Source: an uncultured Sphingomonadaceae bacterium | GTDB lineage: Bacteria; Pseudomonadota; Alphaproteobacteria; Sphingomonadales; Sphingomonadaceae | Direction: 5' to 3' | Assembly (NCBI GenBank): GCA_913060895.1 | Contig: CAJXSN010000006.1 | Coordinates: 1-64,000 of the forward strand | DNA length: 64,000 bases | Shown here: positions 7,508 to 22,895 of the stretch, piece by piece | Layout of the letters: every line of letters begins with the position of its first letter | Position numbering within the stretch: position 1 is the stretch's first letter | The notes under the pieces: generated by a model | What the model was told of the DNA's origin: nothing | The model's database searches: none | Seen by the model: only the letters and a program-made list of their open reading frames with translations | Position numbers and translations under genes: made by a program

Positions 7508-7921
7508 CTATTTGCGGCGGGCGAGGGGCCAGTCGGTCACCTCGCCCACCCATAATGCAAGCCAGATAATCAGGGGCTGCGCGAACATTCGCGGCACATG
7601 ATAGGCAAGGCCAAGGCCCCCTCCATCGCCAGTCTCCGCCCGGGCCATATCAAGCGCGAAATGGTTCATATTGGCGGGCCATACACACAAGGCATACAGC
7701 GCCAGTCCGATACCGGCCGCCTGCCTCAACTGCTGCGACCACGGTTGCAGCAGACCCAGCGCGCCGACAATTTCGGCAATGCCTGTCCACAGTACGACAG
7801 CTTCCGGGGCTGGTACCCAATCCGGCATGATCGTCATGAAGCTATCGGGCCGGACGAGATGAAGATACCCTGCGATCGCATAGAGCCAGGCCAGCACCCA
7901 GCGGAGGATAGAGCCTATCAT
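7508..7921 (-). CDS. DoxX family membrane protein
   Basis: 137 aa with about four membrane segments (residues ~4-20, 42-60, 70-84, 108-126). The pattern LYAIAGYLHLVRPD near the N-terminus and WTGIAEIVGALGLL fit the DoxX family. Family members are linked to quinone or thiosulfate redox in some organisms, but the role here is unknown. It is on the opposite strand to the SWIB gene and followed upstream by a DUF427 gene on the same strand (49 bp). Confidence 0.85.
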   Translation of the reverse strand: MIGSILRWVLAWLYAIAGYLHLVRPDSFMTIMPDWVPAPEAVVLWTGIAEIVGALGLLQPWSQQLRQAAGIGLALYALCVWPANMNHFALDMARAETGDGGGLGLAYHVPRMFAQPLIIWLALWVGEVTDWPLARRK

Positions 7922-7970
7922 CCGGCAGCCTTTGCACGGCTATGCACGAGGCGACAGATATAATTTCAAC

Positions 7971-8261
7971 TCAGATCTCGGTGATTTCGACGTCGCCCCA
8001 AAACGCGATGTGATCGCGGATGTTTTCCGCGTCAGGTTTGGGATTGGTGTAAGTCCATGCGGCATCGACGTTGATGTCGCCGCCTGCATCGATGGAGAAA
8101 TAGCTCGCATCGCCTTTCCAGGGGCAATGAGTGGTCTTAGACGAATGGACAAGATTGCCGCGATTGACACTGGCAGGTGGAAAATAATGGTTTCCTTCTA
8201 CCATCACGGTTTCGTCAGCGCGGGCGATTGTTTCGCCATTCCAGCGGGCTTCAATGGGCAT
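7971..8261 (-). CDS. DUF427 domain protein
   Basis: 96 aa, entirely a DUF427 domain: MPIEARWNGETIARAD, the hallmark EGNHYFPPASV, and THCPWKGDASYFSI (C-P-W-K-G). A small cytosolic beta-rich protein of unknown function. Same direction as DoxX, possibly one transcript. Its start faces the start of the dipeptidase gene across about 100 bp, which must hold both promoters. Confidence 0.92.
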   Translation of the reverse strand: MPIEARWNGETIARADETVMVEGNHYFPPASVNRGNLVHSSKTTHCPWKGDASYFSIDAGGDINVDAAWTYTNPKPDAENIRDHIAFWGDVEITEI

Positions 8262-8358
8262 ATTCGATGTCCTTCGCTAAATGCGTTCTGCTTTTGAAAT
8301 ACCAGGCACTTGCGCTAGGTTAGCGAAGAGCATCGCGACACGTTCCGAAGGATTTACC

Positions 8359-9645
8359 ATGCGTCTGTTTCCTGCCCTGCTAGCTTCTACACTGATTGCG
8401 GCTCCAATGATGGCATTGCCATTATCGGCGCAGTCTCCGCAAGAAGTGGCCGAAGCTGCGCTGGAGGCGGCGCCGGTATGGGATGGCCACAACGACGTGC
8501 CGATTCAGCTACGCAGCCGGTTCGACAATGTAATCAACGATTTCGACTTTACCGACACGACTGCCACCGCCACCGCCAACGCCACTGGCACCGATAGCCG
8601 CAATGCGATGCACACCGATCTGATCCGTCTGCGCAGAGGGAAAGTCGGGACACAGTTCTGGTCTGTCTATGTCAGCGCGTCGCTTGAGGAAGCCGAAGCT
8701 GTCCAGACTACTATCGAGCAGATCGATGTCACAAAACGACTGATTGCGCGCTATCCTGATGACCTTGTTCTCGCGCTTACTGCGGATGATGTGGAGCAGG
8801 CGCTGGCTCAGGGTAAAATGGCTTCGATGATGGGGATGGAAGGGGGCCATTCGATCGGCTCGAGTCTGGCCGTGCTGCGTCAGACCTATGATCTGGGCGC
8901 GCGGTATATGACGATTACCCATTCCAAGACGCTCGGCTGGGCGGACAGTTCGACGGACGAGCCGCGCAACAATGGCCTGACAGATTTCGGTAAGGATGTG
9001 CTGCGCGAGATGAATCGCATCGGCATGCTGGTCGATCTTAGCCATGTCAGTGAAAAGACCATGCATGACGCGCTTGATACCGTCAGCGCGCCGGTCATTT
9101 TCAGTCATTCGTCGGCCCGCGCGCTGAACGGCCATGCGCGCAATGTACCGGACGGCGTGTTGCAGCGTTTGCGTGATAATGGAGGGATTATCATGGTCAC
9201 TTTCGTGCCGGGGTTCCTGAGCGAGGAAGCACGGGTATGGAACGCCAATCGCGCGGGCGAGCAGGCGCGGCTTGAAGCGCTGTGGCAGGGGCAACCGGAT
9301 AAGGTCGAAACCAGGCTGGAGGCATGGGACGCAGCTAACCCGCTTCCACAATCCTCAATCGCGCAGGCGGCAGATCATATCGATCACGTGCGTGCCATTG
9401 CAGGTATCGACTCCATCGGCATCGGTGGCGATTATGACGGGATACCGTTCGCGCCCCCCGGGCTGGAAGACGTGTCGACTTATCCCGCATTGTTCCAGGA
9501 ATTGGCGCGGCGAGGATATTCACAAGCCGATTTGGAGAAAATCTCGATGCGCAACATGATGCGCGTGATGCGCCGCGCAGAAGCCGTTGCGGCGTCGATG
9601 GCGGATATGCAGCCATATGAATATCCAGCCGGAGCGCCGCGTTGA
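8359..9645 (+). CDS. exported membrane-dipeptidase-like M19 peptidase
   Basis: 428 aa from the ATG at 8359, preceded by GAAGGA; the upstream in-frame ATG at 8281 would spoil the signal peptide. Signal peptide residues 1-25 (ending LPLSAQS). The zinc-binding start PVWDGHNDVP (His44, Asp46), GMEGGHSIG, LVDLSHVSE and IFSHSSARAL are the M19 renal dipeptidase motifs, and GIGGDYDG is near the end. Expected to hydrolyse dipeptides (including D-residue forms) in the periplasm. Monocistronic. Confidence 0.93.
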   Translation: MRLFPALLASTLIAAPMMALPLSAQSPQEVAEAALEAAPVWDGHNDVPIQLRSRFDNVINDFDFTDTTATATANATGTDSRNAMHTDLIRLRRGKVGTQFWSVYVSASLEEAEAVQTTIEQIDVTKRLIARYPDDLVLALTADDVEQALAQGKMASMMGMEGGHSIGSSLAVLRQTYDLGARYMTITHSKTLGWADSSTDEPRNNGLTDFGKDVLREMNRIGMLVDLSHVSEKTMHDALDTVSAPVIFSHSSARALNGHARNVPDGVLQRLRDNGGIIMVTFVPGFLSEEARVWNANRAGEQARLEALWQGQPDKVETRLEAWDAANPLPQSSIAQAADHIDHVRAIAGIDSIGIGGDYDGIPFAPPGLEDVSTYPALFQELARRGYSQADLEKISMRNMMRVMRRAEAVAASMADMQPYEYPAGAPR

Positions 9646-9670
9646 GTAACCTGCCGTCTGATGCCAGGGG

Positions 9671-9919
9671 TCAAACGGTGTCGTCGGGGTCGTAGCTCCA
9701 GTCTTCAAAACTATAGCGGCAGTCGCTATCGGCATCATCGCCGTCAAGGCGCTGCGCAATGTGGTGGTGAACATAGCCTATGACCTTGCCCATATAATTC
9801 CCCGGGCTGCTGGTCAGATCATCCCTCTTCCTGCGCTTTATACAGACGACGCGGCGCCCCGATCTGTAGCTGGTGGCTTCGCCTGAAGCGTTTTCATCAC
9901 CGAGTTGCTTGGGCTGCAA
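9671..9919 (-). CDS. small hypothetical protein
   Basis: 82 aa: a basic first half (GRRVVCIKRRKRDD) and an acidic end (DGDDADSDCRYSFEDWSYDPDD). Two cysteines, no signal or membrane segment. No family recognised. It lies just downstream of the dipeptidase (convergent, 25 bp) and is followed upstream by an inverted repeat and the DUF3008 gene on the same strand. An internal start at MGKVIGYVHH is also possible. Moderately likely to be real. Confidence 0.4.
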   Translation of the reverse strand: MQPKQLGDENASGEATSYRSGRRVVCIKRRKRDDLTSSPGNYMGKVIGYVHHHIAQRLDGDDADSDCRYSFEDWSYDPDDTV

Positions 9920-9932
9920 ATTTACGCAGAGG

Positions 9933-9953
9933 TAAGACTCACCATAAGTCTTA
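9933..9953. terminator. inverted repeat, possible terminator
   Basis: TAAGACT (9933-9939) and AGTCTTA (9947-9953) form a perfect 7-bp stem with a 7-nt loop between the DUF3008 stop and the next small gene. No clear T run on the minus strand, so its action is uncertain. Confidence 0.4.
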
Positions 9954-9970
9954 TTGCGAGTGCGGCCCCA

Positions 9971-10162
9971 TCAATCGTTATCGTCTGTAGTTTCGGGCAG
10001 GCCTGACCGTTCAGTGGAGGCCATCTCCTCCAACTCGCTTTCGGTCATGCTGTCGAACATTTGTTGCGACGCGCCCTGCAGGTCGTTTTTGTCCTGCTCG
10101 CCGCGTTTGGCGGCCAAGGCAGCACCGGCTGCCTGTTGCTGCGCTTTGCTCTTGGCTTTCAT
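9971..10162 (-). CDS. DUF3008 family small protein
   Basis: 63 aa: MKAKSKAQQQAAGAALAAKRG followed by LQGASQQMFDSMTESELEEMAST, the DUF3008 pattern over its whole length. Lysine/alanine-rich start and acidic end; no function known, although such genes often sit among stress-related genes. Its start overlaps the stop of the upstream DUF2945 gene by 4 nt (10159-10162), so the two are translationally coupled. Confidence 0.88.
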   Translation of the reverse strand: MKAKSKAQQQAAGAALAAKRGEQDKNDLQGASQQMFDSMTESELEEMASTERSGLPETTDDND

Positions 10163-10395
10163 CGTCTGCTATCCTCAGCTGAAAGTTCGGACCCGCGCTT
10201 CAGGACTTCGTCGCCGTCTTCCTGCTTTATCAGGTAAGCGGGATTGTCCTCGTCGCCGTCCTTGGTGACTTCGGAATCCTGAAGCGTGCGCTTCACCTCG
10301 CGTTCGAAGCGATCTTTAATCTGGCCCTTGCCTTCCCCATCACCCCAGTTCCATTTTACATACTGGCCGGTCTGAAAACTGCTAGAATCGCTCAT
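10159..10395 (-). CDS. DUF2945 / Hva1-type TUDOR domain protein
   Basis: 78 aa. YVKWNWGDGEGKGQIKDRF, then an Asp-Asn-Pro-Ala-Tyr segment (DNPAYLIKQEDGDEVLKR), matches the small Hva1/DUF2945 family, a single SH3/TUDOR-like barrel. In fungi the relative is linked to virulence; the bacterial function is unknown. AAAGAGA lies before the ATG. Overlaps the DUF3008 start by 4 nt, indicating an operon of two very small proteins. Confidence 0.88.
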   Translation of the reverse strand: MSDSSSFQTGQYVKWNWGDGEGKGQIKDRFEREVKRTLQDSEVTKDGDEDNPAYLIKQEDGDEVLKRGSELSAEDSRR

Positions 10396-10487
10396 AACAT
10401 ATCTCTTTCAAGGGTTTAAAGCGCAATTGATCCAGATTTGAGACCGTTGGTTCTATGGGCAGTCACGATACGAGACCGACATGCTGA

Positions 10488-10793
10488 TCAGTTCTGGGGT
10501 TCGTTTTCGACCATCACCGGGGCCGTATCGTCAGCGCCTTCGATTTCGTCGGCATCCTCAATCACGATGCTGTCGGTACCGTCACCTTCTTCGGCCGTGG
10601 ATTGAATTGCACCGGAAACGGTTGCCTCTTCCTCCACGTCACCTTGAAACATTGCCGGGATGATCCAGACAGCAGACATAGCCACTAGAGCGAGGACGAG
10701 ACTGATGGCCAAGACGTAGCGCATAACGCCGGTTTTCTCGCCAGCCGACGCATGGTCGCCCTCGATGTGAATTTTGCCGTTTCTATCGTTCAT
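10488..10793 (-). CDS. small single-pass membrane protein with acidic C-terminus
   Basis: 101 aa from the ATG at 10793, supported by GGAGGGT 8 nt upstream. A short basic/polar head (~1-24), one membrane segment (~26-46, VLAISLVLALVAMSAVWII) and a strongly acidic tail rich in Asp/Glu. Likely inner membrane with the tail in the periplasm. No family recognised. It lies between dapD upstream and the DUF2945-DUF3008 pair downstream, all minus strand; a 92-bp gap precedes DUF2945. Confidence 0.6.
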   Translation of the reverse strand: MNDRNGKIHIEGDHASAGEKTGVMRYVLAISLVLALVAMSAVWIIPAMFQGDVEEEATVSGAIQSTAEEGDGTDSIVIEDADEIEGADDTAPVMVENEPQN

Positions 10794-10830
10794 AACTTTA
10801 CCCTCCAAAGCGCATGTGATTGTTAATTCG

Positions 10831-10855
10831 AACCGGTGTCCGGGCTAACTGTTCC
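10831..10855 (-). promoter_or_regulatory. possible EcfG-like general-stress promoter
   Basis: On the minus strand GGAAC (10855-10851), 16 nt, then GGTT (10834-10831), one base off the EcfG consensus GGAAC-N16-CGTT. It overlaps the end of dapD and lies about 40 nt before the start of the one-TM protein. One mismatch and a short motif mean chance occurrence is possible. Confidence 0.25.
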
Positions 10856-11677
10856 CTAGTCGCGCAGCAAATCGTTGATTGCCGTTTTCTCGCGGGTTTG
10901 CGCATCGACCGTTTTTACAATTACTGCGCAAGCGAGTGAAGGCCCGCCGTTTTTCGCCGGAAGTGTGCCGGGCACGACGACAGAATACGGCGGAATATGA
11001 CCATAGATAACCTCACCGGTGTCGCGGTAAACGATCTTGGTCGATTGGGTGATGAAGACCCCCATCGCTACAACCGCACCTTCACCCACGACCACGCCTT
11101 CGACGATTTCCGATCGCGCACCGATAAAGCAATTGTCACCGATGATTGTCGGGTTGGCTTGCAATGGCTCAAGCACGCCGCCAATCCCCGCACCTGCCGA
11201 AATATGGCAATGGGAGCCGACCTGCGCGCAGCTACCGACACTGGCCCATGTATCGATCATGGTGCCGTCGCCCACATAAGCACCGATATTGGTGAAACTG
11301 GGCATCAGCACCACGCCGCGGCCGATATGGCTGCCGCGCCGCACGATGGCGCCGGGCACGACACGGAAACCGGCATCGCGGAAGCGGGTATCGTCCCATC
11401 CCTCGAACTTACTTGGCACTTTGTCGAATGCCGGAGAGCCTACCGCGCCTTCAATTACAGCATTATCACGCAAGCGGAACGAAAGGAGCACCGCTTTCTT
11501 CAGCCACTGGTTGACCTGCCAGCCACCTTTTCCGTCAGGTTCGGCCACCCGGGCCTTGCCGGTATCTATCAGAGCAATGGCCTGTTCAACGGCTTTCGCA
11601 ATTGCGTCGCTTCCCGGGCCGACGGTATCGCGGCTTTCCCACGCGGCTTCTATGGTTTGAGCAAGGGTGTCGGTCAT
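10856..11677 (-). CDS. dapD: tetrahydrodipicolinate N-succinyltransferase
   Basis: 273 aa from the ATG at 11677 ([17 protein letters not shown]); the frame extends further upstream but homology begins here. Helical N-terminus, then hexapeptide repeats of a left-handed beta helix ([54 protein letters not shown]). It transfers succinyl from succinyl-CoA to tetrahydrodipicolinate in lysine/meso-DAP synthesis; trimeric and cytosolic. Other dap genes are not in the window. It is divergent from the subtilisin-like gene; small-protein genes follow on the same strand. Confidence 0.97.
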
Positions 11678-11821
11678 TATCGGCGTATCCTGTTTCCACC
11701 GCATGTGATGCGTTTTCTCGCTGCTACAAACAGGCGGGCGTCTCGGCAAGCAATGCAGGTGCTGGAAAGATACGGATTTTGGACCTAGGTTCTTCGATTG
11801 CAGCGGAAAAGGCGGAGCCCC

Positions 11822-14284
11822 ATGTTAAGAAAAGCGTCAGACGTCTTCCGCAAAGGTGTCCGCATGTCATTGAAACGCCAATCTTCTGTGCCGGTCCCTA
11901 TGGGTATCGCGTTCCCTCGAGCCCTAATGCTTGGATGTGCAACAGCCGTTCTGACTGCTTGTGGCGGCGGGGGCGGCGGCGGTCCGGTCAGCACACCATC
12001 TCCGCCGCCTGCTTCGCCAGCGCCATCCCCATCGCCCACACCGGTACCTGCCCCCACGCCGGCTCCTCCTCCGACATTCGATACGGCAGAGATCAACCGA
12101 TCTGATGGTCCAGGGCAGCATAATGCCGTTGCTGCGTGGCAAGACGGGACGACCGGTGATGGAGAGATAATCGCGATTATCGACACTGGCATCGATCTCG
12201 ACAATCCGGAATTTGCAGGGCGGATCGATCGTCGTTCAACTTATGTAGCGGGCACCGGCGACGCTCAGGAAGTCAACGACCACGGCACCCATGTTGCGCT
12301 GGTGGCTGCCGGTGCCCTCGACCAGACCGGAGTGGCCGGCATTGCTTACGATGCGAATATTCTGGCACTGCGCTCCGACCGTCCCGGATCGTGCACGACC
12401 GGTGTCGAGGCGACACTGGATGGATGCCGGTTCGCCGATGTTGATATTGCGAATGCTGTAACCCGCGCGACCAATGCCGGTGCTACCGTCATCAATCTCA
12501 GCTTGGGGGGAAGCAATCCGGGGCAAAGGCTGAACGATGCCGTCGCAGCAGCAGCAGCAGCTGGTATCGTCATTGTCGTTTCCGCAGGCAATGATGGCGG
12601 TTCGACTGATGCGAATATCGATCCCGCCAATCCGGACCGGTTTGCCACTGGATTGCTGGCTGCCGGCGGGGCGAATGTCATCATCGTCGGTTCGGTCGAT
12701 GCGGAGAACGAGTTTTCCGATTTCAGCAATGCAGCGGGCGATTCCGCAGCATCCTTCCTCTCGGCTCGCGGGGAGCGGGTCTGCTGCATTTACGAAGACG
12801 GGGTACTGCGCCAGACAACGCGCGATGGTTCTACCTTCGTAACCCTGTTTTCCGGGACCAGTTTTGCGGCACCGCAGGTGGCAGGAGCGGTTGCACTGCT
12901 GGCGCAGGCATTCCCCAATCTGAGCGGCGACCAGATCGTCGAGATACTGCTGGAAACCGCGGCGGAAGCCGGCGCGGCAGGAACTGATGCAACATTCGGA
13001 CGCGGCCTACTGGATATTGCCGCCGCGATTGCACCGCAGGGAACCACCCGTGTCGCCGGGACCACCACCAGTCTGCAATCGGTGGATGATTTCGCCATTG
13101 GTTCTGCAGCGATGGGCGATGCGCTGGACTCGAGCACGCTACAGACCATCGTGCTGGACGATTATGATCGGGCATACGGTTTTCAACTGGGCAGCCGCCT
13201 GCGCGGGAGCGCTCCTGCGCCGGTGCTTCGCGGTATTGTGGCCAGCAATGGCCGCAGGGTTGCAGCAGGGGCCAAGAAGCTTTCGCTGGCCTTTACTGTC
13301 GGGGCTCCCGGATCGGCGGGTGATCGTGATGCTCTGCAACCTCTCCGCTTGTCCAGCGCGCAAGCTGCGGATGCGCGGGTCCTGGCGGGACGCCTGATGG
13401 TAGCTGCCGCGCCCGGTACGAAATTGGGCTTCTCCTTCAGCGAAAGCGCGGAGGGACTGGTTGCGCATCTACAGGGCGGGGAAGCGGGCCACAGTCGTCC
13501 GGCATTTATGGTTGCGCGGGAAACGGCAGGCGACACGGGCTTTGCACAGGCCGGCAAGATGGCATTTGCGATGCGGCATCAACTGGGCAAGCTGGGCCTA
13601 ACAGTTAACGGTGCCAGCGGCGATGCCGTGTTAGGTGCCAGCAGGAGTGCGGTTGATAGTGTATCGCGCCAGCGCGAGCGTTTCGGCACCAGCAGTCTGG
13701 GTTTTGCAATGGACGGGGCCATCGGGCCTGTTCAGGCGATCGTGGGGGGCACATGGCTGTTCGAAGATCGCACGGTTCTGGGCGGATACTGGCACGAGGA
13801 GTTCGGCGCAGGAGGCGCGGACAGCGTTTTTCTCGACGGATCGCTGGGGTTCGATTTCGCGTCCGGCTGGCGTTTGGGCGCAGCCTATCGCCGAGGTATC
13901 ACGCGGGCGCAATCTGGCGGTCTGCTGGATGGCGGATCGCGGTTTTCTTCCAACGCATTTTCAATGGATTTGAGCAAGCGCCACGCGTTCATGCGCGGCG
14001 ACAGCCTGGGACTGCGCATTGCCCAGCCATTGCGGGTCACCGGCGGCGGGCTCGATATTACTCTGCCGACCGCGTATGACTATGCCAGCGAGAGCCCTGT
14101 TTATGGTACGCAGCGGATATCGCTGACGCCAGAGGGGCGCGAGCTTATGGGTGAGCTGTCATGGCAGGGCATGCTGGCGGGCGGTGCATTTTCCAGCAGT
14201 GTGTTCCTGCGTTCGCAGCCGGGGCATTACGCGCAGGCACCCGATGATGCCGGACTGGTCCTGCGCTGGAACCGCCAGTTTTAG
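11822..14284 (+). CDS. subtilisin-like S8 serine protease, lipoprotein with C-terminal barrel-like region
   Basis: 820 aa if started at 11822 (GGCGGAG upstream); an ATG at 11864 with AAAGGTG is an alternative. A lipobox VLTAC gives Cys47, followed by seven Gly and a Pro-rich linker (~53-85). Catalytic triad: Asp121 ([10 protein letters not shown]), His154 (NDHGTHVA), Ser347 ([13 protein letters not shown]), with the oxyanion Asn in VVSAGNDGG. After ~residue 405 the chain becomes Gly/Ala/Ser-rich with alternating patterns and ends in RWNRQF (terminal Phe), resembling an autotransporter beta barrel. A lipid anchor plus a barrel-like tail is an odd combination. Likely surface protease. Confidence 0.88.
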
Positions 14285-14345
14285 TGCAGGCGCTCTGACA
14301 TAGTTCAAACCCGGGCGCAGTGCTTCAGGCAGGTATCCCGGCGCT

Positions 14346-15431
14346 TCAGGCAGGCATCCCGGCCTGCAAGGCAAATGCATAGGCACTCTGAACCAGCGGG
14401 GCGACCCGCTCGCTCATCTGCTTGGCGTGGGACGAGCTGGCTGTGCCGTCGATTACGCGCTTCTTGATGCCCTGCATAATTCCGGCGAGCCGAAATAAAT
14501 TGTAAGCCCAGTACCATTCCATCGGCGGAACGGGATAGCCGGTCTTGTCGACATATCGGGCCACTGCTTCCTCGACCGATGGGATGCCCAATGCTTCGAT
14601 ATCCAGACCCGCCAATCCTGCGCGCCCGTCGGCGGGGTTATGCCAATTGAGCATCAGATAACTGAAATCGGCAATCGGATCGCCCAGCGTCGACAGTTCC
14701 CAGTCGAGCACCGCCTGAACAGTGTTCGTGTCGTTATGGAAGATCATATTGTCGAGCCGGTAATCACCATGCACGATACCACTGGCGTGCTGCGGCGGAA
14801 TGGTTTCGGGCAGCCATTCGATCAGCCGGTCCATCTCAGGGATCGTGTCGGTTTCGGACAGCTTGTACTGTTTGCTCCAGCGACTGATCTGGCGCGCGCA
14901 ATAATCCTCGCTTTTGCCGAAATCACCCAACCCGATTTCTTCCGGCTTTTGCAAATGCAGTTCCGCCATCGTGTCGATCATTGCAAAGTAGATTTCGCGG
15001 CGTTCCTCGGGCGTATTGTCCGGCAGAGCACCATTCCATAGCGACCTGCCGTCCGCCATGCTCATGACGAAGAATTTTGAACCCAGCACGTCAGAGTCTT
15101 CACACAGACCAAAGGTCTGCGGCACGGGGAAGCCAGTCGGATGCAAACCCGTCATGACCTGATATTCCCGGTCCACCGCATGAGCCGAGGGGAGCAACTT
15201 GCCGAACGGTTGGCGGCGCAGGACGTAGGATCGGGCCGGCGTATCGATCCGGTAGGTCGGATTGGACTGCCCGCCCTTGAACTTGGAATAGCTGATCGGG
15301 CCTTCATACCCAGCCACGTTGGCCTCGAACCATTCGGTCAGCGTGTCCATGTCAAGCTTGTCGCGATCCTCGACCTCGACCGTGCCGACCATTTCCTTCT
15401 GGTAATCGATTTTAGGCGCGTTTGTGCTCAT
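14346..15431 (-). CDS. APH-like phosphotransferase (ACAD10/11 kinase-domain type)
   Basis: 361 aa. Kinase-like fold: FKGGQSNPTYRID (P loop region), YVLRRQPFGKLLPSAH (Lys), catalytic HGDYRLDNMIFH and metal site AVLDWELSTLGDPIADFSY. This subgroup matches the N-terminal kinase domain of mammalian ACAD10/ACAD11 and bacterial LvaA-type enzymes that phosphorylate 4-hydroxyacyl-CoA, not drug-resistance kinases. It starts at an ATG overlapping the stop of the alcohol dehydrogenase by one base (TAATG), so they are co-translated. The ACAD11-like gene is two genes upstream in the same operon. Confidence 0.9.
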   Translation of the reverse strand: MSTNAPKIDYQKEMVGTVEVEDRDKLDMDTLTEWFEANVAGYEGPISYSKFKGGQSNPTYRIDTPARSYVLRRQPFGKLLPSAHAVDREYQVMTGLHPTGFPVPQTFGLCEDSDVLGSKFFVMSMADGRSLWNGALPDNTPEERREIYFAMIDTMAELHLQKPEEIGLGDFGKSEDYCARQISRWSKQYKLSETDTIPEMDRLIEWLPETIPPQHASGIVHGDYRLDNMIFHNDTNTVQAVLDWELSTLGDPIADFSYLMLNWHNPADGRAGLAGLDIEALGIPSVEEAVARYVDKTGYPVPPMEWYWAYNLFRLAGIMQGIKKRVIDGTASSSHAKQMSERVAPLVQSAYAFALQAGMPA

Positions 15432-16519
15432 TAATCGAACACCACAACGCTGCGGGCGCTGGTGCCAGCACGCATCTTGTCGAATCCCTTGTTGATATCT
15501 TCCAACGGGATACGCTCGGCAATGATGGTGTCCAGATCCAGCAGACCACGCATGTAAAAGCCGACCAGGCGTGGCAGATCGACCGGGAAGTGGTTTTCCC
15601 CCATGATCGCACCTTGCAATTTCTTCCCGCCGAGCAGGTCCATCGCGCTGAGGCCGACTTTGCAGTCGAGTGGCATCATGCCCAGAATGATCGCGGTGCC
15701 GCCACGTCGAAGGCTTGCCACTGCCAGGTCGGCGCTGGCCTGACGACCCACGGCTTCGATACCGTAATGGACACCGCCGCCCGATAGATTGATGATCTGC
15801 TTTGCAGCATCGTCAGCCATTGCATCGATAGTGTGCGTTGCGCCCAGAACTTTGGCGAGTTCGCGTTTCTCCGGCAACGGATCAGCTGCGATGACCATTC
15901 CGGCCCCGGCAATTTTCGCTGCGTTAATGGCGGCAAGGCCAACTCCGCCACAGCCCACGACCAGAACCGTTTCACCTGGTACGACCTTGGCTGCGTTGAA
16001 AATCGTGCCGGCTCCTGTGGTGACAGCGCATCCGATGATGGCGGCCCGGTCCAGCGGCATGTCCTTGTCGATTGAGACGCAGGCATTTTCATGAATCAGC
16101 ATCTGCTCGCTAAAGGCGGACAGGTTGAGCATCTGATTGACCTGTTCACCATCGTTTCTGGTAATCCGCGTGGGTTCACCATTCGTGCGGCGGGTATCTG
16201 CGCCCAAGCAGAGTGCCAGCCTGCCAGTGACACAGAATTCGCAGGTTCCGCAAAATGCGCTGAGACAGGAAACGACATGGTCGCCCGGTTTCACAGAGCG
16301 CACTTCGCTGCCCACGGCGCGCACGACACCCGCAGCCTCGTGTCCGGGAATTGCGGGCAGGGCATGGGGGTACGAACCATCTATAAAATGCAGGTCCGAA
16401 TGGCAAAGACCACAGGCCTTGGTGTCGATTAGCACTTCGCGCGGGCCGGGATCGGAGAGTTCTACCTCTCCGATTACCAAACCCTGACCTGGCGTTTCTA
16501 ATATTGCTGCCTTTGCCAT
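15431..16519 (-). CDS. zinc-dependent alcohol dehydrogenase (MDR family)
   Basis: 362 aa. The catalytic zinc site is ACGLCHSDLHF with GHEAAGVV; the structural zinc is held by four Cys in CGTCEFCVTGRLALC. The NAD(P) Rossmann motif is VLVVGCGGVGLAA. Of the class III/long-chain MDR type that oxidises primary or secondary alcohols. It overlaps both neighbours by one base (acyl-CoA dehydrogenase upstream, APH-like kinase downstream), so all three form one tightly coupled operon. The substrate may be a hydroxyacyl or alcohol intermediate of that pathway (inference). Confidence 0.93.
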   Translation of the reverse strand: MAKAAILETPGQGLVIGEVELSDPGPREVLIDTKACGLCHSDLHFIDGSYPHALPAIPGHEAAGVVRAVGSEVRSVKPGDHVVSCLSAFCGTCEFCVTGRLALCLGADTRRTNGEPTRITRNDGEQVNQMLNLSAFSEQMLIHENACVSIDKDMPLDRAAIIGCAVTTGAGTIFNAAKVVPGETVLVVGCGGVGLAAINAAKIAGAGMVIAADPLPEKRELAKVLGATHTIDAMADDAAKQIINLSGGGVHYGIEAVGRQASADLAVASLRRGGTAIILGMMPLDCKVGLSAMDLLGGKKLQGAIMGENHFPVDLPRLVGFYMRGLLDLDTIIAERIPLEDINKGFDKMRAGTSARSVVVFD

Positions 16520-17844
16520 TAGCGATCTCCTCCTGCTGCAGCGCTGCCTGCGCTGGCGGAATGGGCAGTCGAGCCGCGCAGTGAAGCGACCATATCATCT
16601 TCTCCTGGTACGTGTTTACCGAATTCCATGCGCGCGATAGAGCGTGCGTGAACTTCGTCTGGGCCATCCGCCAGACGCAGCGTGCGCTGGTGGGCATAGG
16701 CATTGGCGAGACCGTAATCATTCGACACGCCGCCGCCTCCATGCGCCTGAATGGCATCATCAATGATCGATAGGGCCATGTTCGGGGCCTGCACCTTAAT
16801 CATAGCGATTTCCTGCTTGGCGGCTTTGTTGCCGACCTTATCCATCATGTCGGCCGCCTTGAGGCAAAGCAGACGGGTCATGTCGATATCGATGCGGGCA
16901 CGGGCCACACGCTCTTCCCATACGGAATGCTTGTAGATCGGCTTACCGAAGGCTTCGCGGCTTTGCAGACGCTTGCACATTTTTTCCAACGCTTCTTCAG
17001 CAACGCCTATGGTGCGCATGCAGTGGTGGATACGGCCGGGGCCGAGGCGCCCCTGCGCGATCTCGAAACCGCGTCCTTCGCCTAGAAGCATAGCTGTGGC
17101 GGGCACACGCACGTCGGTCATTTCTACTTCCATGTGGCCGTGAGGCGCGTCGTCGTAACCGAAAACCGGCAGGTGGCGCAGGATATTCACGCCTTTGGCG
17201 TCGATCGGCATCAGGACCATCGACTGCTGGGCATGACGCTGGGCGCTGGTGTCTGTCTTACCCATAACAATGGCGACCTTGCAGCGCGGATCGCCAAGGC
17301 CGGAGGACCACCATTTACGGCCGTTGATCACATATTCATCGCCATCGCGTTCGATGCGGCATTCAATGTTCGTGGCATCGGAACTGGCCACATCGGGCTC
17401 GGTCATGAGGAACGCAGAACGGATTTTACCGTTCATCAGCGGCTCCAGCCATTCGTCCTTCTGCTGGCGCGTACCATAGCGGTGGAACACTTCCATATTG
17501 CCGGTGTCGGGCGCGGAGCAGTTGAACACTTCGGAAGCGAAACCGATGCGGCCCATTTCCTCTGCGCATAGCGCGTATTCGAGATTGGTCAGGCCGGGAC
17601 CTTCAAATTCGAAGCTTTCTTCCACATGATGGTGGCCGTCATTGCGCGGTGGCATAAACAGGTTCCAAATGCCCTGATCCTTAGCCTTCGCTTTCAGTTC
17701 TTCGACGACCGGAATGACTTTCCAGCGGTCACCCTCGGCGTCCTGTTGCTGATACGTCGGCACGGAGGGGCGAACGTGGCTTTCGATGAAGTCGCGCACA
17801 CGGTCGCGCCAATGGCGTTGACGGTCTGTGGGTTGGAAATCCAT
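16519..17844 (-). CDS. ACAD11-like acyl-CoA dehydrogenase
   Basis: 441 aa. Strong ACAD11-type signature: [50 protein letters not shown] then HHCMRT, and [13 protein letters not shown]-binding acyl-CoA dehydrogenase fold throughout; the end has a loose Ala/Ser/Gly tail. In mammals ACAD11 acts on 4-phosphoacyl-CoA made by its own kinase domain; here the two activities are on separate genes in one operon (with the kinase at 14346). First gene of the three-gene minus-strand set; 78 bp from the transporter gene upstream. Confidence 0.94.
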
Positions 17845-17922
17845 GTTAGGGCATCCTTATTAGGGTTGTCGAAAATACAATTGGCAGCGTGTTAAAGTGT
17901 AATTTTATAAGGGCAGATATCA

Positions 17923-19371
17923 TCAAGGCACCAGACCTTCCTGAGTAGCGTCCGCCCGCGCAAGCTGGCCGAGTTTCTCCAGCCGAGCTTCGTGATCGGC
18001 CCTGTCTATCGGGAAGCGGAGCAACCAGAAAGCTGCAAACAATGCCAGCAATACGCAGGCACCAAGATACATCAGCACCATTTCATTCAGCACCGGCGTA
18101 GCAACCGAACCCGGTAAAGCTCCAGTCGACAGCTGCGAGGCGGAAACGATCTGTCCGGTCAGGAAAATACCAAATCCGGTCGCGCATTTTTGTACCAGCC
18201 AGTTGCCGGAATAAAAGACCCCCTCGGCCCGCCGACCCCCACGCTCTTCGAACAGCTCGACAATCTCGGCGATCATGGAGGACGCGGAGATCATTACCAC
18301 TACGCCAAGAGTGTTGGCCAGAAAGGTAAAAGCATAGAACAGGACAGTAGAAGGCAGGGTGCCGACCTGGGGCCAGATGCCTGCGACGAACAGAAGATAG
18401 GGAACGCAAATCAGAGCCATGGAAACAAGCGCGCTGTAAGCTGCACTTCGCGCCTTGCCCAGTTTCTGGTGCATCGGGCCGACGATGAAAAACATCAGAA
18501 TCACGCTGAAGAACAGGACCACAGGATAGGCGATCAGTGCATTGCGATCGAGCTGCCAGACAAACAGATTCAGATAGTTCGAAATGGAAAAGGTCATGCC
18601 TTGGCTGATATAGGCGGCGAGGCCGCCAGCGGCGAAGATCAGGAACGCTTTTTCTGAAAATGCCTCCCGCACCTCGGAGAAGGCAAGGCCCAGAGAAAAG
18701 GGCTCCGGCTTATTCGCTGGATAATGCGCGACCAGTTTATGCTGCCCATAAGCTGAACCAATAACCGAAACGGCCATTAATATCGCTCCGAAGATGCCAA
18801 AGACGATGTAACCGTCCTGCTGCAACAGACCTTCCGGCCCGGGCATAAATACCGTGTACGCGAGCACCATCATCAGAAGACCGCCAGCCCAACCGGAGAG
18901 ATAGCGGTATCGGAACAGCGTGGTGCGTTCGTTGTAATCCTGCGTCAGTTCCGGGACGAGGCTGACCGAGGGAACTTCGCAGGCCGACAGCAATGCACGA
19001 ACGCTGATGGCGATTGCGAGCAGACCAAGAAAGCTCGGCGCTTCTCCGCCCGGGGGCGACCAGAGCATTATCCACATCAAGGCCAGCGGTATCGGTGCTG
19101 CATACAGCCATGGCAGGCGGCGGCCCCATTTGGTGTAGGTACGGTCCGAAAGATTGCCGAGAATAGGGTCGATTACAGCATCGACCAACAGGGCGATCAG
19201 CAAGGCGGCGCTGACTACTCCAGCATCCATACCCAGAACCTGATTGTAAAAAATCAGCAGGAAGAACGAAAAGCCGGTATCTTTCACCCCGAAAGCCACC
19301 GCGCCAAAGCCGTGAATGATTTTCAGCCGCATCGGTAGAGGATGCGGGATACGGGTGGCAGCAATCGTCAT
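17923..19371 (-). CDS. GPH-family MFS transporter
   Basis: 482 aa with about 12 membrane segments. Features of the glycoside-pentoside-hexuronide:cation symporter group: DAVIDPILGNLSDRT, KWGRRLPWLYAAPIPLAL, PELTQDYNERTTLFRYR. Such transporters in sphingomonads sit in catabolic clusters and need not carry sugars. Located between the kinase/ADH/ACAD11 operon and the plus-strand acyl-CoA dehydrogenases, so it may import the substrate of this cluster. The start has an upstream region of 240 bp shared with the divergent ACAD gene. Confidence 0.9.
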   Translation of the reverse strand: MTIAATRIPHPLPMRLKIIHGFGAVAFGVKDTGFSFFLLIFYNQVLGMDAGVVSAALLIALLVDAVIDPILGNLSDRTYTKWGRRLPWLYAAPIPLALMWIMLWSPPGGEAPSFLGLLAIAISVRALLSACEVPSVSLVPELTQDYNERTTLFRYRYLSGWAGGLLMMVLAYTVFMPGPEGLLQQDGYIVFGIFGAILMAVSVIGSAYGQHKLVAHYPANKPEPFSLGLAFSEVREAFSEKAFLIFAAGGLAAYISQGMTFSISNYLNLFVWQLDRNALIAYPVVLFFSVILMFFIVGPMHQKLGKARSAAYSALVSMALICVPYLLFVAGIWPQVGTLPSTVLFYAFTFLANTLGVVVMISASSMIAEIVELFEERGGRRAEGVFYSGNWLVQKCATGFGIFLTGQIVSASQLSTGALPGSVATPVLNEMVLMYLGACVLLALFAAFWLLRFPIDRADHEARLEKLGQLARADATQEGLVP

Positions 19372-19614
19372 AAACGCACGCGACTCGATTGCCCGAGCAG
19401 TGCGAATCCTGCCTTTGTCGCTTCATCTCCCATGCCCCGCAGCCTAGGCCAGTTGCCGCGTGCGTCAACGCGAGAATCGCTTACGCTACGGCAAGCTCGA
19501 GCTTTCGCTGGTGGCTAAAGGCATGGCTTGCACCGACGGGGGAAATGCGATTACGCTTACGTCAAACAAGGGGGGTGATAAGCCCACTGTTCAATGCCCT
19601 TCAGGAGAATATGG

Positions 19615-20820
19615 ATGTCTGACACAGCCGCTCAACTGGAAACGTTTCGCAGCGAAACTCGCATCTGGCTGGAGGCAAACTGTCCCGCCGAAATGCGTGA
19701 GCCGGTGCGCGACGAAGACGACATTTATTGGGGCGGACGCAACGCAAAATTCAAATCCGACGCTCAGAAATCGTGGTTCGAGGCCTGCGTTGCGAAAGGC
19801 TACACCGTTCCGGCATGGCCCAAGGCCTATGGAGGCGCGGGTCTGGATGCCCCGAAGGCGAAAATCCTGCGCGAGGAAATGTCGCGTATAGGCGCTCGCC
19901 CTCCTCTGTCGAGCTTCGGCATCTGGATGCTTGGCCCTGCATTGCTGCATTTCGGCACTGAAGGTCAGAAGCAGCGCTTCCTCAATGAAATTGCTCGTGG
20001 TGAAATCCGTTGGTGTCAGGGCTATTCGGAGCCGGGCAGTGGATCCGACCTCGTCTCGATGCAAACCTATGGGGAGGATAAGGGCGATCACTGGGTCGTC
20101 AACGGCCAGAAGATCTGGACGTCTTACGCCGACGAGGCGGACTGGATTTTCTGCCTCGTTCGCACCGATAAATCGAACAAGTACAAGGGTATCACCTTCA
20201 TGCTGTTCGACATGGCCGGTGGCGGTGTTACGACCAAGCCGATCCTGCTGATCAGTGGCAACAGCCCGTTCTGCGAAACCTTCATGGACGATGTGAAGGT
20301 GCCCAAGAGTTACGGGGAGGATGTTCCGGCTTTCGTAGGTGAAGTGAACCGCGGCTGGGATGTTGCCAAATATCTGCTGGGTCACGAGCGTGAGATGATT
20401 TCAGGCGCTGGTGGCGGCGATCGCAATGCGGCGATCGGTTCGGCCATGCAGCGGCGGGCTGCGAAAGAGGGCGGGGCGCTGGATCCAGTGTTGCGGGCCG
20501 AAATGGCGCAGTTCGATGTCGATGCATTGGCGTATGCTGCGATGGGTGAGAAATTCCTCGACGAGATCAAGGTGGGCAAAGCGCATCCTGCCCAGCCAAA
20601 TATGATGAAATATGTCGGAACCGAGTTGAACAAGCGTCGCCACGAACTGATGATGTCTGCTGGTGGCAGCACCGCTCTGGAATGGGACAGTGAAGAAACC
20701 AAGGGCGGCAAGCAGCCCCGGGACTGGCTGCGGACAAAGGCGAATTCGATTGAAGGCGGTACCAGCGAAGTGATGCTGAACGTTATTTCCAAACGGATTC
20801 TCGAACTGCCCGATAGCTGA
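19615..20820 (+). CDS. acyl-CoA dehydrogenase, large-type
   Basis: 401 aa from ATG 19615, with CAGGAGAA just upstream; the frame opens earlier at 19594. Core motifs GYSEPGSGSDLVSMQT, WVVNGQKIWTSYADEADW, and NSIEGGTSEVMLNVISKRIL. FAD-dependent alpha,beta-dehydrogenation of an acyl-CoA. The next gene is a second, shorter acyl-CoA dehydrogenase 112 bp downstream; paired ACADs like these often form alpha2beta2 enzymes for branched or cyclic acyl-CoA (e.g. steroid side chains). The pairing as one heteromer is inference. Confidence 0.93.
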   Translation: MSDTAAQLETFRSETRIWLEANCPAEMREPVRDEDDIYWGGRNAKFKSDAQKSWFEACVAKGYTVPAWPKAYGGAGLDAPKAKILREEMSRIGARPPLSSFGIWMLGPALLHFGTEGQKQRFLNEIARGEIRWCQGYSEPGSGSDLVSMQTYGEDKGDHWVVNGQKIWTSYADEADWIFCLVRTDKSNKYKGITFMLFDMAGGGVTTKPILLISGNSPFCETFMDDVKVPKSYGEDVPAFVGEVNRGWDVAKYLLGHEREMISGAGGGDRNAAIGSAMQRRAAKEGGALDPVLRAEMAQFDVDALAYAAMGEKFLDEIKVGKAHPAQPNMMKYVGTELNKRRHELMMSAGGSTALEWDSEETKGGKQPRDWLRTKANSIEGGTSEVMLNVISKRILELPDS

Positions 20821-20932
20821 GCAATTTCACCGGCGCGGTCCTTGACCGAGCCGATTTTCATTCGACTTTGAGATTAGCGACATTCCTTTACCCGCCGAGA
20901 TGACGGGCCGGAATGACGGGAGAGAAAACACC

Positions 20933-22072
20933 ATGCCATTGTATCACAACGAAGATCAGGCGATGCTCGCGGACTCCGCCGCTCAGTTTATGAGCGAAGA
21001 AGGTGCCATCGCAAAGCAACTGCGCCACTGGCGCGACCGCGATTGTAAGGACGGCTTCGGTCACGGCCTTTGGAAGCAGTTCGGCGAAATGGGGTTCACC
21101 GGAATTTTGATAGACGAAAACGATGGCGGCCTGGGCATGGGCCACGTCGAAGCAGGTATTGTGCTGGAACAGATCGGACGCAACCTGACCCCATCACCTT
21201 TCCTGACCAGCTCGGTTCTTGCGGCAACAGCGTTGAAGCATGGCGGTACTGACCTGAAAGGCAAATATCTTCCCGGACTGATCGCGGGGGAGCATGTCTT
21301 CGCCGTGGCGATCGACGAAGGTGCGAAGCACCGTCCTGAACGCATTGCTTGCAAAGCAGAAAAATCTGGCAACGGTTTCAAACTGTCCGGGCAGAAGAAT
21401 TTTGTTGTCTATGGGGCCAGTGCGGATATGCTTGTCGTGGCGGCACGCACTTCGGGTGGTGACAGCGATACGGACGGGATAACGCTTTTTGCCGTGCCCA
21501 GAGATGCGCCTGGCATGACGCATGATTCCGTTCGCTTGGTCGACAGTTCGATGGCGACACACACCAAATTCGATAGTGTCGAGTTGGACGGCGATGCAGT
21601 AATCGGCGAGGTCGATGGCGGACGCGAAATCCTGAATGCAATGCTGGATGCAGGCCGTGTCGGTTCCGCTGCAGAAGGTTGCGGCGTGGCGGGCGGCGCG
21701 TTCGACATGACAATCGATTACCTCAAACAGCGCAAACAATTCGGCAGACTGATCGGTGAATTTCAGGCGTTGCAGCACCGCGCCAGCCACCTTTACTCCG
21801 AAGTGGAAATCGCCCGCGCGGTGACGATCAAGGCCCAGCAACTGCTCGACGGCGGATCGGAGAAAGCATCGCTGATGGTATCGGTAGCAAAGGCCAAGGC
21901 GTCCAAAACTGCCGGCCTGTCGGTTCGGGAAGGCGTGCAGATGCATGGCGGCATCGGAATGACAGACGAATACGACATCGGCCTGTTCATGAAGCGCGAC
22001 CGGGCCCTTCAGGAATTTCTGGGCGACGAATATTACCATACCAACCGTGTCGCTGAACTGAGCGGATACTGA
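20933..22072 (+). CDS. acyl-CoA dehydrogenase, second subunit type
   Basis: 379 aa from the ATG at 20933 (MPLYHNEDQAML), with GGGAGAG upstream. Family segments: GFTGILIDENDGGLGMGHVE, KLSGQKNFVVYGASADMLV, QRKQFGRLIGEFQALQHR and VQMHGGIGMTDEYDIGLFMK. Shorter and more divergent than the preceding ACAD, as usual for partner subunits. Followed 13 bp later by an SDR gene, so the three plus-strand genes are likely one operon of a beta-oxidation-type pathway. Confidence 0.93.
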   Translation: MPLYHNEDQAMLADSAAQFMSEEGAIAKQLRHWRDRDCKDGFGHGLWKQFGEMGFTGILIDENDGGLGMGHVEAGIVLEQIGRNLTPSPFLTSSVLAATALKHGGTDLKGKYLPGLIAGEHVFAVAIDEGAKHRPERIACKAEKSGNGFKLSGQKNFVVYGASADMLVVAARTSGGDSDTDGITLFAVPRDAPGMTHDSVRLVDSSMATHTKFDSVELDGDAVIGEVDGGREILNAMLDAGRVGSAAEGCGVAGGAFDMTIDYLKQRKQFGRLIGEFQALQHRASHLYSEVEIARAVTIKAQQLLDGGSEKASLMVSVAKAKASKTAGLSVREGVQMHGGIGMTDEYDIGLFMKRDRALQEFLGDEYYHTNRVAELSGY

Positions 22073-22085
22073 GGGAGACCGGACA

Positions 22086-22895
22086 ATGATGAAACTGAAC
22101 GAACTTTTCGGCCTAGAAGGCAAAATCGCATTGGTCACCGGTGGCAGCCGCGGCATCGGCAAGATGATCGTGGAAGGCCTTCTGGAAGCTGGCTGCGCGC
22201 GGGTTTATATCGTCGCGCGCAAGAAAGAGCAGGTGGATGAAACCTCCGCCGAACTGGGTGACAAGGTCGTCGGGCTGATCGGCGATCTGTCGCAGATGGA
22301 CGGTATCACGCAGTTGACCGATGAATTGTCCTCGCGCGAAGACAGGCTGGACCTGCTGGTCAACAACGCCGGCGCTGCGTGGGGCGAGCCGTTCGAGGAA
22401 TTCGGCGAAGCAGGTTGGGACCGGACGATGGACCTCAACCTGAAAACGCCGTTTTTCCTGACGCAGAAACTGATGCCGCTGCTGAAAGCTGCTGCCACCA
22501 AGGAACGCCCTGCAAAAGTGCTGATGATTGCATCCATCGACGGGATGAAATCAAACCCGTGGCCCACCTATCCGTATCAGGCATCGAAGGCGGGCCTGAT
22601 CCACCTGACGCGCCGCATGGCGGCCGAGCTGGTCGGGCACAATATCATCGTCAACGGCATCGGGCCGGGCGCATTTCCCAGCGCAATGAACCGGGCGGCC
22701 CGCGACAATGCCGACCTGGTCGAGAAGGGCATCCCTTCGCGCCGCATCGGTGTGACCGAAGATATGGCCGCCGGCGCAATCTACCTTCTCAGCCGGGCAG
22801 GGGATTATGTTGTGGGCACGACGATCCCAATCGATGGCGGCGTGGTGAACGCCAATATCGGTGCAGGCAACTTCGTCGATCCTTCGGGAGGTTGA
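22086..22895 (+). CDS. SDR family oxidoreductase
   Basis: 269 aa. Cofactor motif VTGGSRGIGKMI, NNAGAAWGEPFEEF, catalytic Ser/Tyr/Lys region (MIASIDGM, then YPYQASKAGLIHL), and the C-terminal GTTIPIDGG. Classical short-chain dehydrogenase, probably a 3-hydroxyacyl-CoA or alcohol dehydrogenase of the cluster; RhlG-like in appearance. Last gene of the plus-strand operon; a strong bidirectional hairpin follows the stop. Confidence 0.93.
   Translation: MMKLNELFGLEGKIALVTGGSRGIGKMIVEGLLEAGCARVYIVARKKEQVDETSAELGDKVVGLIGDLSQMDGITQLTDELSSREDRLDLLVNNAGAAWGEPFEEFGEAGWDRTMDLNLKTPFFLTQKLMPLLKAAATKERPAKVLMIASIDGMKSNPWPTYPYQASKAGLIHLTRRMAAELVGHNIIVNGIGPGAFPSAMNRAARDNADLVEKGIPSRRIGVTEDMAAGAIYLLSRAGDYVVGTTIPIDGGVVNANIGAGNFVDPSGG

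Follow-up and report, generated by a model that had tools for sequence, protein, structure and literature searches.

The window analysed here, 64,000 nucleotides from an uncultured Sphingomonadaceae bacterium (contig CAJXSN010000006.1), very likely carries a split 4-phosphoacyl-CoA module, in which a kinase and an acyl-CoA dehydrogenase (ACAD) resembling mammalian ACAD10 and ACAD11 would act as separate proteins with a zinc alcohol dehydrogenase gene between theirs. All three genes lie on the reverse strand. The kinase, K, has 361 amino acids and the aminoglycoside phosphotransferase (APH) fold (positions 14346 to 15431), and is predicted to be a 4-hydroxyacyl-CoA kinase of the ACAD10/11-kinase type. 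The NAD-type, medium-chain zinc alcohol dehydrogenase (Zn-ADH, 362 amino acids) occupies positions 15431 to 16519 and has a putative role in the same pathway. The ACAD, of 441 amino acids (16519 to 17844), is predicted to convert 4-phosphoacyl-CoA to 2-enoyl-CoA. A sequence-only reading of the window had described this trio with one-base overlaps, and coordinates, strand, junctions and Pfam matches all agree: the three open reading frames (ORFs) start with ATG, and neighbors share one base at 15431 and 16519, both within TAATG. As evidence by itself the overlap was discarded. Gap sizes differ between loci, with the ACAD and ADH matches about 208 nt apart in one relative (L007), so the overlap is not conserved and carries little weight.

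Judged by its residues and closest structures, the ACAD belongs to the ACAD10/11-LvaC type. It matches the Pfam families Acyl-CoA_dh_1, M and N (5.9e-37, 4.4e-18 and 3.9e-14) and is 55.5% identical to the ACAD domain of mouse ACAD11 over 400 amino acids. Its closest solved structures are human and mouse ACAD11 (2wbi, 1.2e-139; 8v3u, 2.3e-139) and 4hr3 (6.5e-132), and the next match, FadE3, reaches only 6e-39. The alignment columns contain equivalents of R626, R631, the HCMR motif (H634-R637) and the catalytic D753 (mouse ACAD11 numbering). These signature residues are present in all 151 ACAD ORFs at least 50% identical to it (138 distinct sequences) and missing from the two further ACADs of the window, AcdL and AcdS, as well as from the ACAD beside the other kinase of the genome (L207). 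A study of ACAD11 mutants indicates that R626, H634 and R637 are needed and matter for the phosphorylated substrate (PMC12440821).

The kinase points in the same direction. K matches the Pfam APH family (5e-52), its closest solved structures are 3dxp (6e-106) and mouse ACAD11 (3e-66), with a hygromycin kinase at 0.004, and it shares 36% identity with the ACAD11 kinase domain. Residues D223, N228, D243 and R180 do not vary among the 11 kinases aligned; D223 and N228 correspond to the catalytic Asp220 and Asn225 of ACAD11, and R180 to its CoA-side Arg176. Database labels of 'aminoglycoside phosphotransferase' on relatives of K, together with the APH fold, would be compatible with an antibiotic kinase, a reading we consider extremely improbable: the APH(3') NCBIfam score of 31 bits against a cut-off of 205 led us to reject a drug-resistance kinase, K stands beside an ACAD in many loci, and its match to the ACAD11 kinase domain is strong. 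These labels would thereby be corrected.

Phylogeny had been proposed as a check on the kinase, and it groups K with 3dxp-like kinases, with the base of the tree left open. Our tree of 63 rows took in the ACAD11 kinase and 3dxp but not Pseudomonas putida LvaA. K falls in a supported sphingomonad group among bacterial kinases that include 3dxp and the kinase of Burkholderia guangdongensis (L145), and the ACAD11 kinase groups with other bacterial kinases near K. Kinases linked to DUF6285 are set far apart on a long branch of their own (length 3.86; 100/100), and two APH paralogs from the same genome fall outside the K group (83/78, on very long branches). With its deepest split left open and some branches of great length, the tree favors, but does not prove, a position of K inside the ACAD10/11-type kinase clade. 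The nearest named relatives of K, in Erythrobacter and Qipengyuania, are 78-81% identical; the source bacterium is close to Erythrobacter. The earlier proposal of a split ACAD10/11-like module is thus supported by the closest structures of both proteins and by the signature residues, and it agrees with the favored placement of K in the tree.

The chemistry itself is largely established. According to two reports, the kinase forms a 4-phosphoacyl-CoA and the ACAD part converts it to a 2-enoyl-CoA without an outside electron acceptor (PMC12440821, PMC11342911). The latter describes that the ACAD10 domain can be replaced in vitro by the orthologous kinase or ACAD from B. pseudomallei, so that a split bacterial pair, as published there, is not new (PMC11342911); the sequence-only reading had missed these in vitro tests. 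For the levulinate route of P. putida, two papers list LvaE, LvaD, which is a short-chain dehydrogenase/reductase (SDR), LvaA working with the small LvaB, and LvaC (PMC9399607, PMC6692424); the reduction of levulinyl-CoA is there assigned to LvaD (PMC9399607).

We propose that the genes of the locus together break down an acyl substrate with a 4-hydroxy (or 4-oxo) group, a proposal built on what the sequences show directly: gene content, residues, relationships and conserved synteny. K would use ATP to phosphorylate the 4-hydroxyl of a 4-hydroxyacyl-CoA. The catalytic Asp of the ACAD would take the C2 proton of the resulting 4-phosphoacyl-CoA, with FAD serving as internal electron shuttle, and loss of phosphate would yield a 2-enoyl-CoA for ordinary beta-oxidation. 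This would be the chemistry carried out by ACAD10/11 in a single chain and by LvaA/LvaC in separate chains, and we regard these two reactions as highly probable, nearly as firm as sequence evidence can make them. The Zn-ADH would supply or drain the 4-hydroxy substrate by converting 4-oxoacyl-CoA and 4-hydroxyacyl-CoA into each other with NAD(H), a step that falls to LvaD in Pseudomonas; this assignment is a guess, and a somewhat doubtful one. A transporter of the major facilitator superfamily (MFS) might import the acid or a precursor, and AcdL, AcdS and an SDR might carry the beta-oxidation further on a chain that is branched or bulky. That the substrate is bulky is likewise a guess, and on balance an unlikely one. 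Taken as a whole, the explanation is probable.

The distribution of the genes fits such a unit. We surveyed 147 genomes of the order at thresholds of E<=1e-100 for the ACAD, 1e-40 for K and 1e-100 for the ADH, and found matches in 114, 115 and 45 genomes, respectively. ACAD and K occur together in 110 genomes, with the ACAD only in 4, K only in 5 and neither in 28 (Fisher 7e-21, kinship ignored). All 45 ADH genomes are among these 110 (Fisher 1.7e-7, with the same reservation). By comparison of coordinates by eye, ACAD, ADH and K are contiguous in 42 of the 45, and on this ground their grouping goes beyond chance. The exceptions are G114, where K and ADH adjoin and the ACAD lies about 4 kb off on the opposite strand; G122, where ACAD and ADH adjoin with K elsewhere; and G130, where ADH and K adjoin and a piece of the ACAD sits on a separate contig. 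Across the phylum, ACAD matches were found in 85 of 299 genomes (E<=1e-90).

When mapped on a 105-row ACAD tree built with a quick method, the ADH-adjacent state is confined to a single 68-row clade (SH-aLRT support 96), in which 58 rows show it and 10 do not; one of these 10 (L012) has the ADH about 4 kb away. Adjacency requires 7 changes on this tree, against 34.2 in shuffles, and the starred branches force only 3. The simplest reading would be one gain followed by several losses. The Zn-ADH is a conserved, lineage-specific member of the operon, a point that the sequence-only reading had overlooked.

A number of observations weigh against the proposed explanation. The K threshold admits kinases of a different clade (family f5, 33-38% identical), and the co-occurrence of K and ACAD therefore mixes clades. 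No ADH of at least 50% identity was found genome-wide in any of six relatives with both ACAD and K (L071, L072, L101, L104, L114 and L118, of which L072 is a metagenome-assembled genome), which argues that the ADH is dispensable. Bradyrhizobium, Tardiphaga, Cupriavidus and Acidisoma have homologs of the ADH, at 51-57% identity, that are located apart from K. An SDR lies between K and ACAD in L054, L061, L185 and L190, where the Zn-ADH sits here, and this suggests an LvaD-type oxo/hydroxy step for the Zn-ADH; several ADH-bearing clusters, however, also have SDRs beside K, so that a simple replacement of SDR by ADH does not fit these clusters. Pfam detects no acyl-CoA synthetase among the seven genes of the locus. 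Finally, a conserved proline of ACAD10/11 (human ACAD11 Pro463), described in PMC11342911 as widening the cavity, is replaced by Ser. We mapped this position by numbering (chain index plus one for mouse, one more for human, anchored at R626/R627 and D753), which puts the published Pro463 at the P of FAPDV. The position holds Ser in 107 of 107 relatives at least 65% identical, and S16/P15/A13 in the 44 relatives of 50-65%, with Pro in the Burkholderia relative L145. If the numbering map is right, this variation means that the proline is not family-wide in bacteria, and its absence here lowered our overall confidence slightly.

The altered pocket is also a reason to consider that K acts on another hydroxyacyl-CoA, with a 5-hydroxy group or a bulky ring hydroxyl, and that the ACAD eliminates that phosphate. 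The resemblance of AcdL and AcdS to alpha2beta2 ACADs (6wy8/6wy9, 4x28) would suit such a substrate; enzymes of this kind serve in steroid side-chain degradation. The phosphate-binding and catalytic residues are nevertheless those of ACAD11 and LvaC, and 4-hydroxy chemistry is what the two reports on this family describe (PMC12440821, PMC11342911), which makes this alternative quite improbable.

The residues of the Zn-ADH are those of a Zn-dependent, NAD-type medium-chain ADH. It matches ADH_N (2.9e-24) and ADH_zinc_N (1.1e-25), and in 62 of 62 ADH ORFs at least 50% identical the three catalytic Zn ligands, the four structural Cys, an NAD-type Asp (D213, at the end of beta2) and S41 and H44 are kept. 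The last two form a liver-ADH-like Ser/His pair, which we take to be the proton relay. The best PDB relative is 7aas, an S-(hydroxymethyl)glutathione dehydrogenase (1.8e-68), and this match would be the argument for reading the Zn-ADH as a passenger of the operon, a glutathione-dependent enzyme of class III acting on formaldehyde or aldehydes. Such a role is very unlikely given the contiguity with ACAD and K in the 42 genomes mentioned above. A class III formaldehyde dehydrogenase was rejected on an NCBIfam score of 256.5 bits, far below the cut-off of 543.95, and on the replacement of the Thr/Tyr of 7aas at two proton-relay positions by Ser/His in all 62 ORFs.

The chief competitor leaves the chemistry of K and ACAD as proposed and places the Zn-ADH upstream, acting on free alcohols, aldehydes or lactols (candidates being 1,4-diols, gamma-lactols and 4-hydroxyalkenals) to give a 4-hydroxy acid or gamma-lactone. 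Its primary-alcohol-type fold and the invariant S41/H44 pair, with the presumed relay role, fit this placement, as do esterase-like PF00144 genes in two clusters (L077, L080) and the carboxylesterase and serine hydrolase genes of a Croceicoccus cluster. On the other hand, Pfam shows neither an aldehyde dehydrogenase nor a lactonase in the set of seven genes, and we hold the upstream placement to be possible though rather unlikely.

Around the trio, the transporter and ACAD genes that had been noted nearby are confirmed. An MFS_2 (GPH-type) transporter (17923 to 19371, reverse strand; PF13347, 1.5e-109) heads the same-strand run. The divergent run on the forward strand comprises, by Pfam, AcdL, a large-subunit-type ACAD (19594 to 20820, its real start possibly a few codons downstream), and its partner AcdS (20900 to 22072), and is closed by an SDR family dehydrogenase (22086 to 22895; PF00106, 1.4e-44). 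Of the 30 best-matching loci (L006-L035), 29 have an MFS match next to the ACAD; in L034 AcdL takes that place. Among 21 named ADH-bearing loci, 16 include both AcdL and AcdS, and two of the other five (L079, L083) are short. The closest solved chains to AcdL are Tcur3483 (6wy9, 1e-34) and 4x28_A (1.1e-34), whereas AcdS is closest to the isovaleryl-CoA dehydrogenase 4kto (6.6e-42) and also matches Tcur3481 (6wy8_A, 1.7e-36). AcdS has an SDR as its neighbor in a number of relatives, among them L068-L070, L073, L074 and L076-L078. Sphingomonad clusters further contain a double TetR-type regulator, an acyl-CoA thioesterase, more SDRs, PF00144 hydrolases and fused enoyl-CoA hydratase/3-hydroxyacyl-CoA dehydrogenases. 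The locus is thus a conserved beta-oxidation cluster around K, ADH and ACAD.

Comparison with known systems brings out what is shared and what differs. Mammalian ACAD10 and ACAD11 have the same types of kinase and ACAD, with D220/N225 and R626/R631/HCMR/D753 equivalents here. Their two activities sit on one polypeptide, whereas here the ORFs are separate with the ADH gene between them; Pfam finds no HAD domain in K or ACAD of the window, and Pro463 becomes Ser. The split LvaA/LvaC orthologs of B. pseudomallei are separate proteins as here, a comparison made through the relative L145, whose K and ACAD are 50% and 61% identical to those of the window and whose K is 76% identical to 3dxp. L145 has no Zn-ADH match and the order K then ACAD, in contrast to ACAD-ADH-K here. 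The P. putida lvaABCDE operon, likened by description only, also combines separate kinase and ACAD genes with a dehydrogenase in a catabolic operon. Its 4-oxo reductase LvaD is an SDR, whereas the K/ACAD run here has the Zn-ADH and the SDR sits in the divergent run; in addition, no small LvaB-like ORF was noted at the locus, and the synthetase is missing from the seven genes. AcdL and AcdS are paired as genes like the alpha2beta2 ACADs Tcur3483/Tcur3481 and 4x28, a likeness read from sequence, and AcdS is nearer to isovaleryl-CoA dehydrogenase.

The chemistry is thus mostly known and so is the split arrangement, and the gene set with the Zn-ADH seems to be a new variant; in the open-access literature searched we found no description of the Zn-ADH or sphingomonad version or of its MFS/alpha2beta2-ACAD setting. 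Judged by the kinase/ACAD pair, the pathway for 4-hydroxy acids recently assigned in mammals would have a widespread, separable bacterial form. The conserved Zn-ADH, transporter and paired ACADs could point to a natural bacterial substrate, unlike the levulinate studies. A bolder view, which we deem unlikely, is that this Sphingomonadales lineage has its own 4-oxo/4-hydroxyacyl-CoA pathway, with a Zn-ADH instead of an SDR at the 4-position, an ACAD11-type pair, alpha2beta2 ACADs and a bulky natural substrate such as an isoprenoid, lactone or sterol-like gamma-hydroxy acid, not levulinate.

Several related loci were seen along the way. Plasmid pTomMM15b of Sphingobium sp. TomMM15, a conjugative plasmid of a strain from tomatine-treated soil, carries at 7748-18945 (L058) an ACAD-K-SDR-SDR-fadJ-CoA ligase-ACAD-thiolase-hydratase cluster. 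As an example of a bulky substrate, a C22 steroid acid with a 16-hydroxy group, in Sphingobium that degrades tomatine, would count formally as a 4-hydroxy acid; the main text of the tomatine paper does not mention a phosphotransferase. DUF6285, which we take to be LvaB, has a single match in our genome (PF19802), fused to another kinase on contig C7, and none at the operon. This second pair (L207:6609-9244) consists of the APH kinase-DUF6285 fusion and, directly behind it, an ACAD that lacks the ACAD10/11 signature. In other Pseudomonadota, small ORFs with DUF6285 come after similar distant kinases that share 23-28% identity with K and are mostly paired with ACADs lacking the signature; one locus, L205, has the order SDR-ACAD-kinase-DUF6285 with the signature in its ACAD. 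A 19 kb locus from a record titled 'Marine gamma proteobacterium HTCC2080' has a K (L075:9001-10059) 78% identical to that of the window and none of the other ten query genes, from gene transfer or contamination. Erythrobacter longus DSM 6997 (L071:5046-10083) has the cluster without an ADH, its best genome match being 36%, and carries instead an extra SDR gene abutting the MFS gene by one base, a natural case of ADH loss; since SDRs also occur at ADH-bearing loci, the extra gene is at most a candidate replacement for the ADH.

Between the divergent MFS and AcdL genes, upstream of AcdL, lies a candidate operator, ACGCTACGGCA (19483 to 19493, forward strand). It is the sole exact match in the 2.73 Mb genome, where a reversed-pattern control has 5. 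Exact copies occur in the same interval of L068, L069, L070, L076 and L085, and copies with one mismatch in L073, L074 and L080; none was found in that interval of L071, L077 or L078. Exact inverted repeats of at least 7 bases are absent from the window's intergenic region. On the other side of the operon, an ORF at 11798-14284 looks, by eye, like an S8-type Ser protease with an autotransporter-like make-up, and its orthologs adjoin K in L071, L072, L074 and L076.

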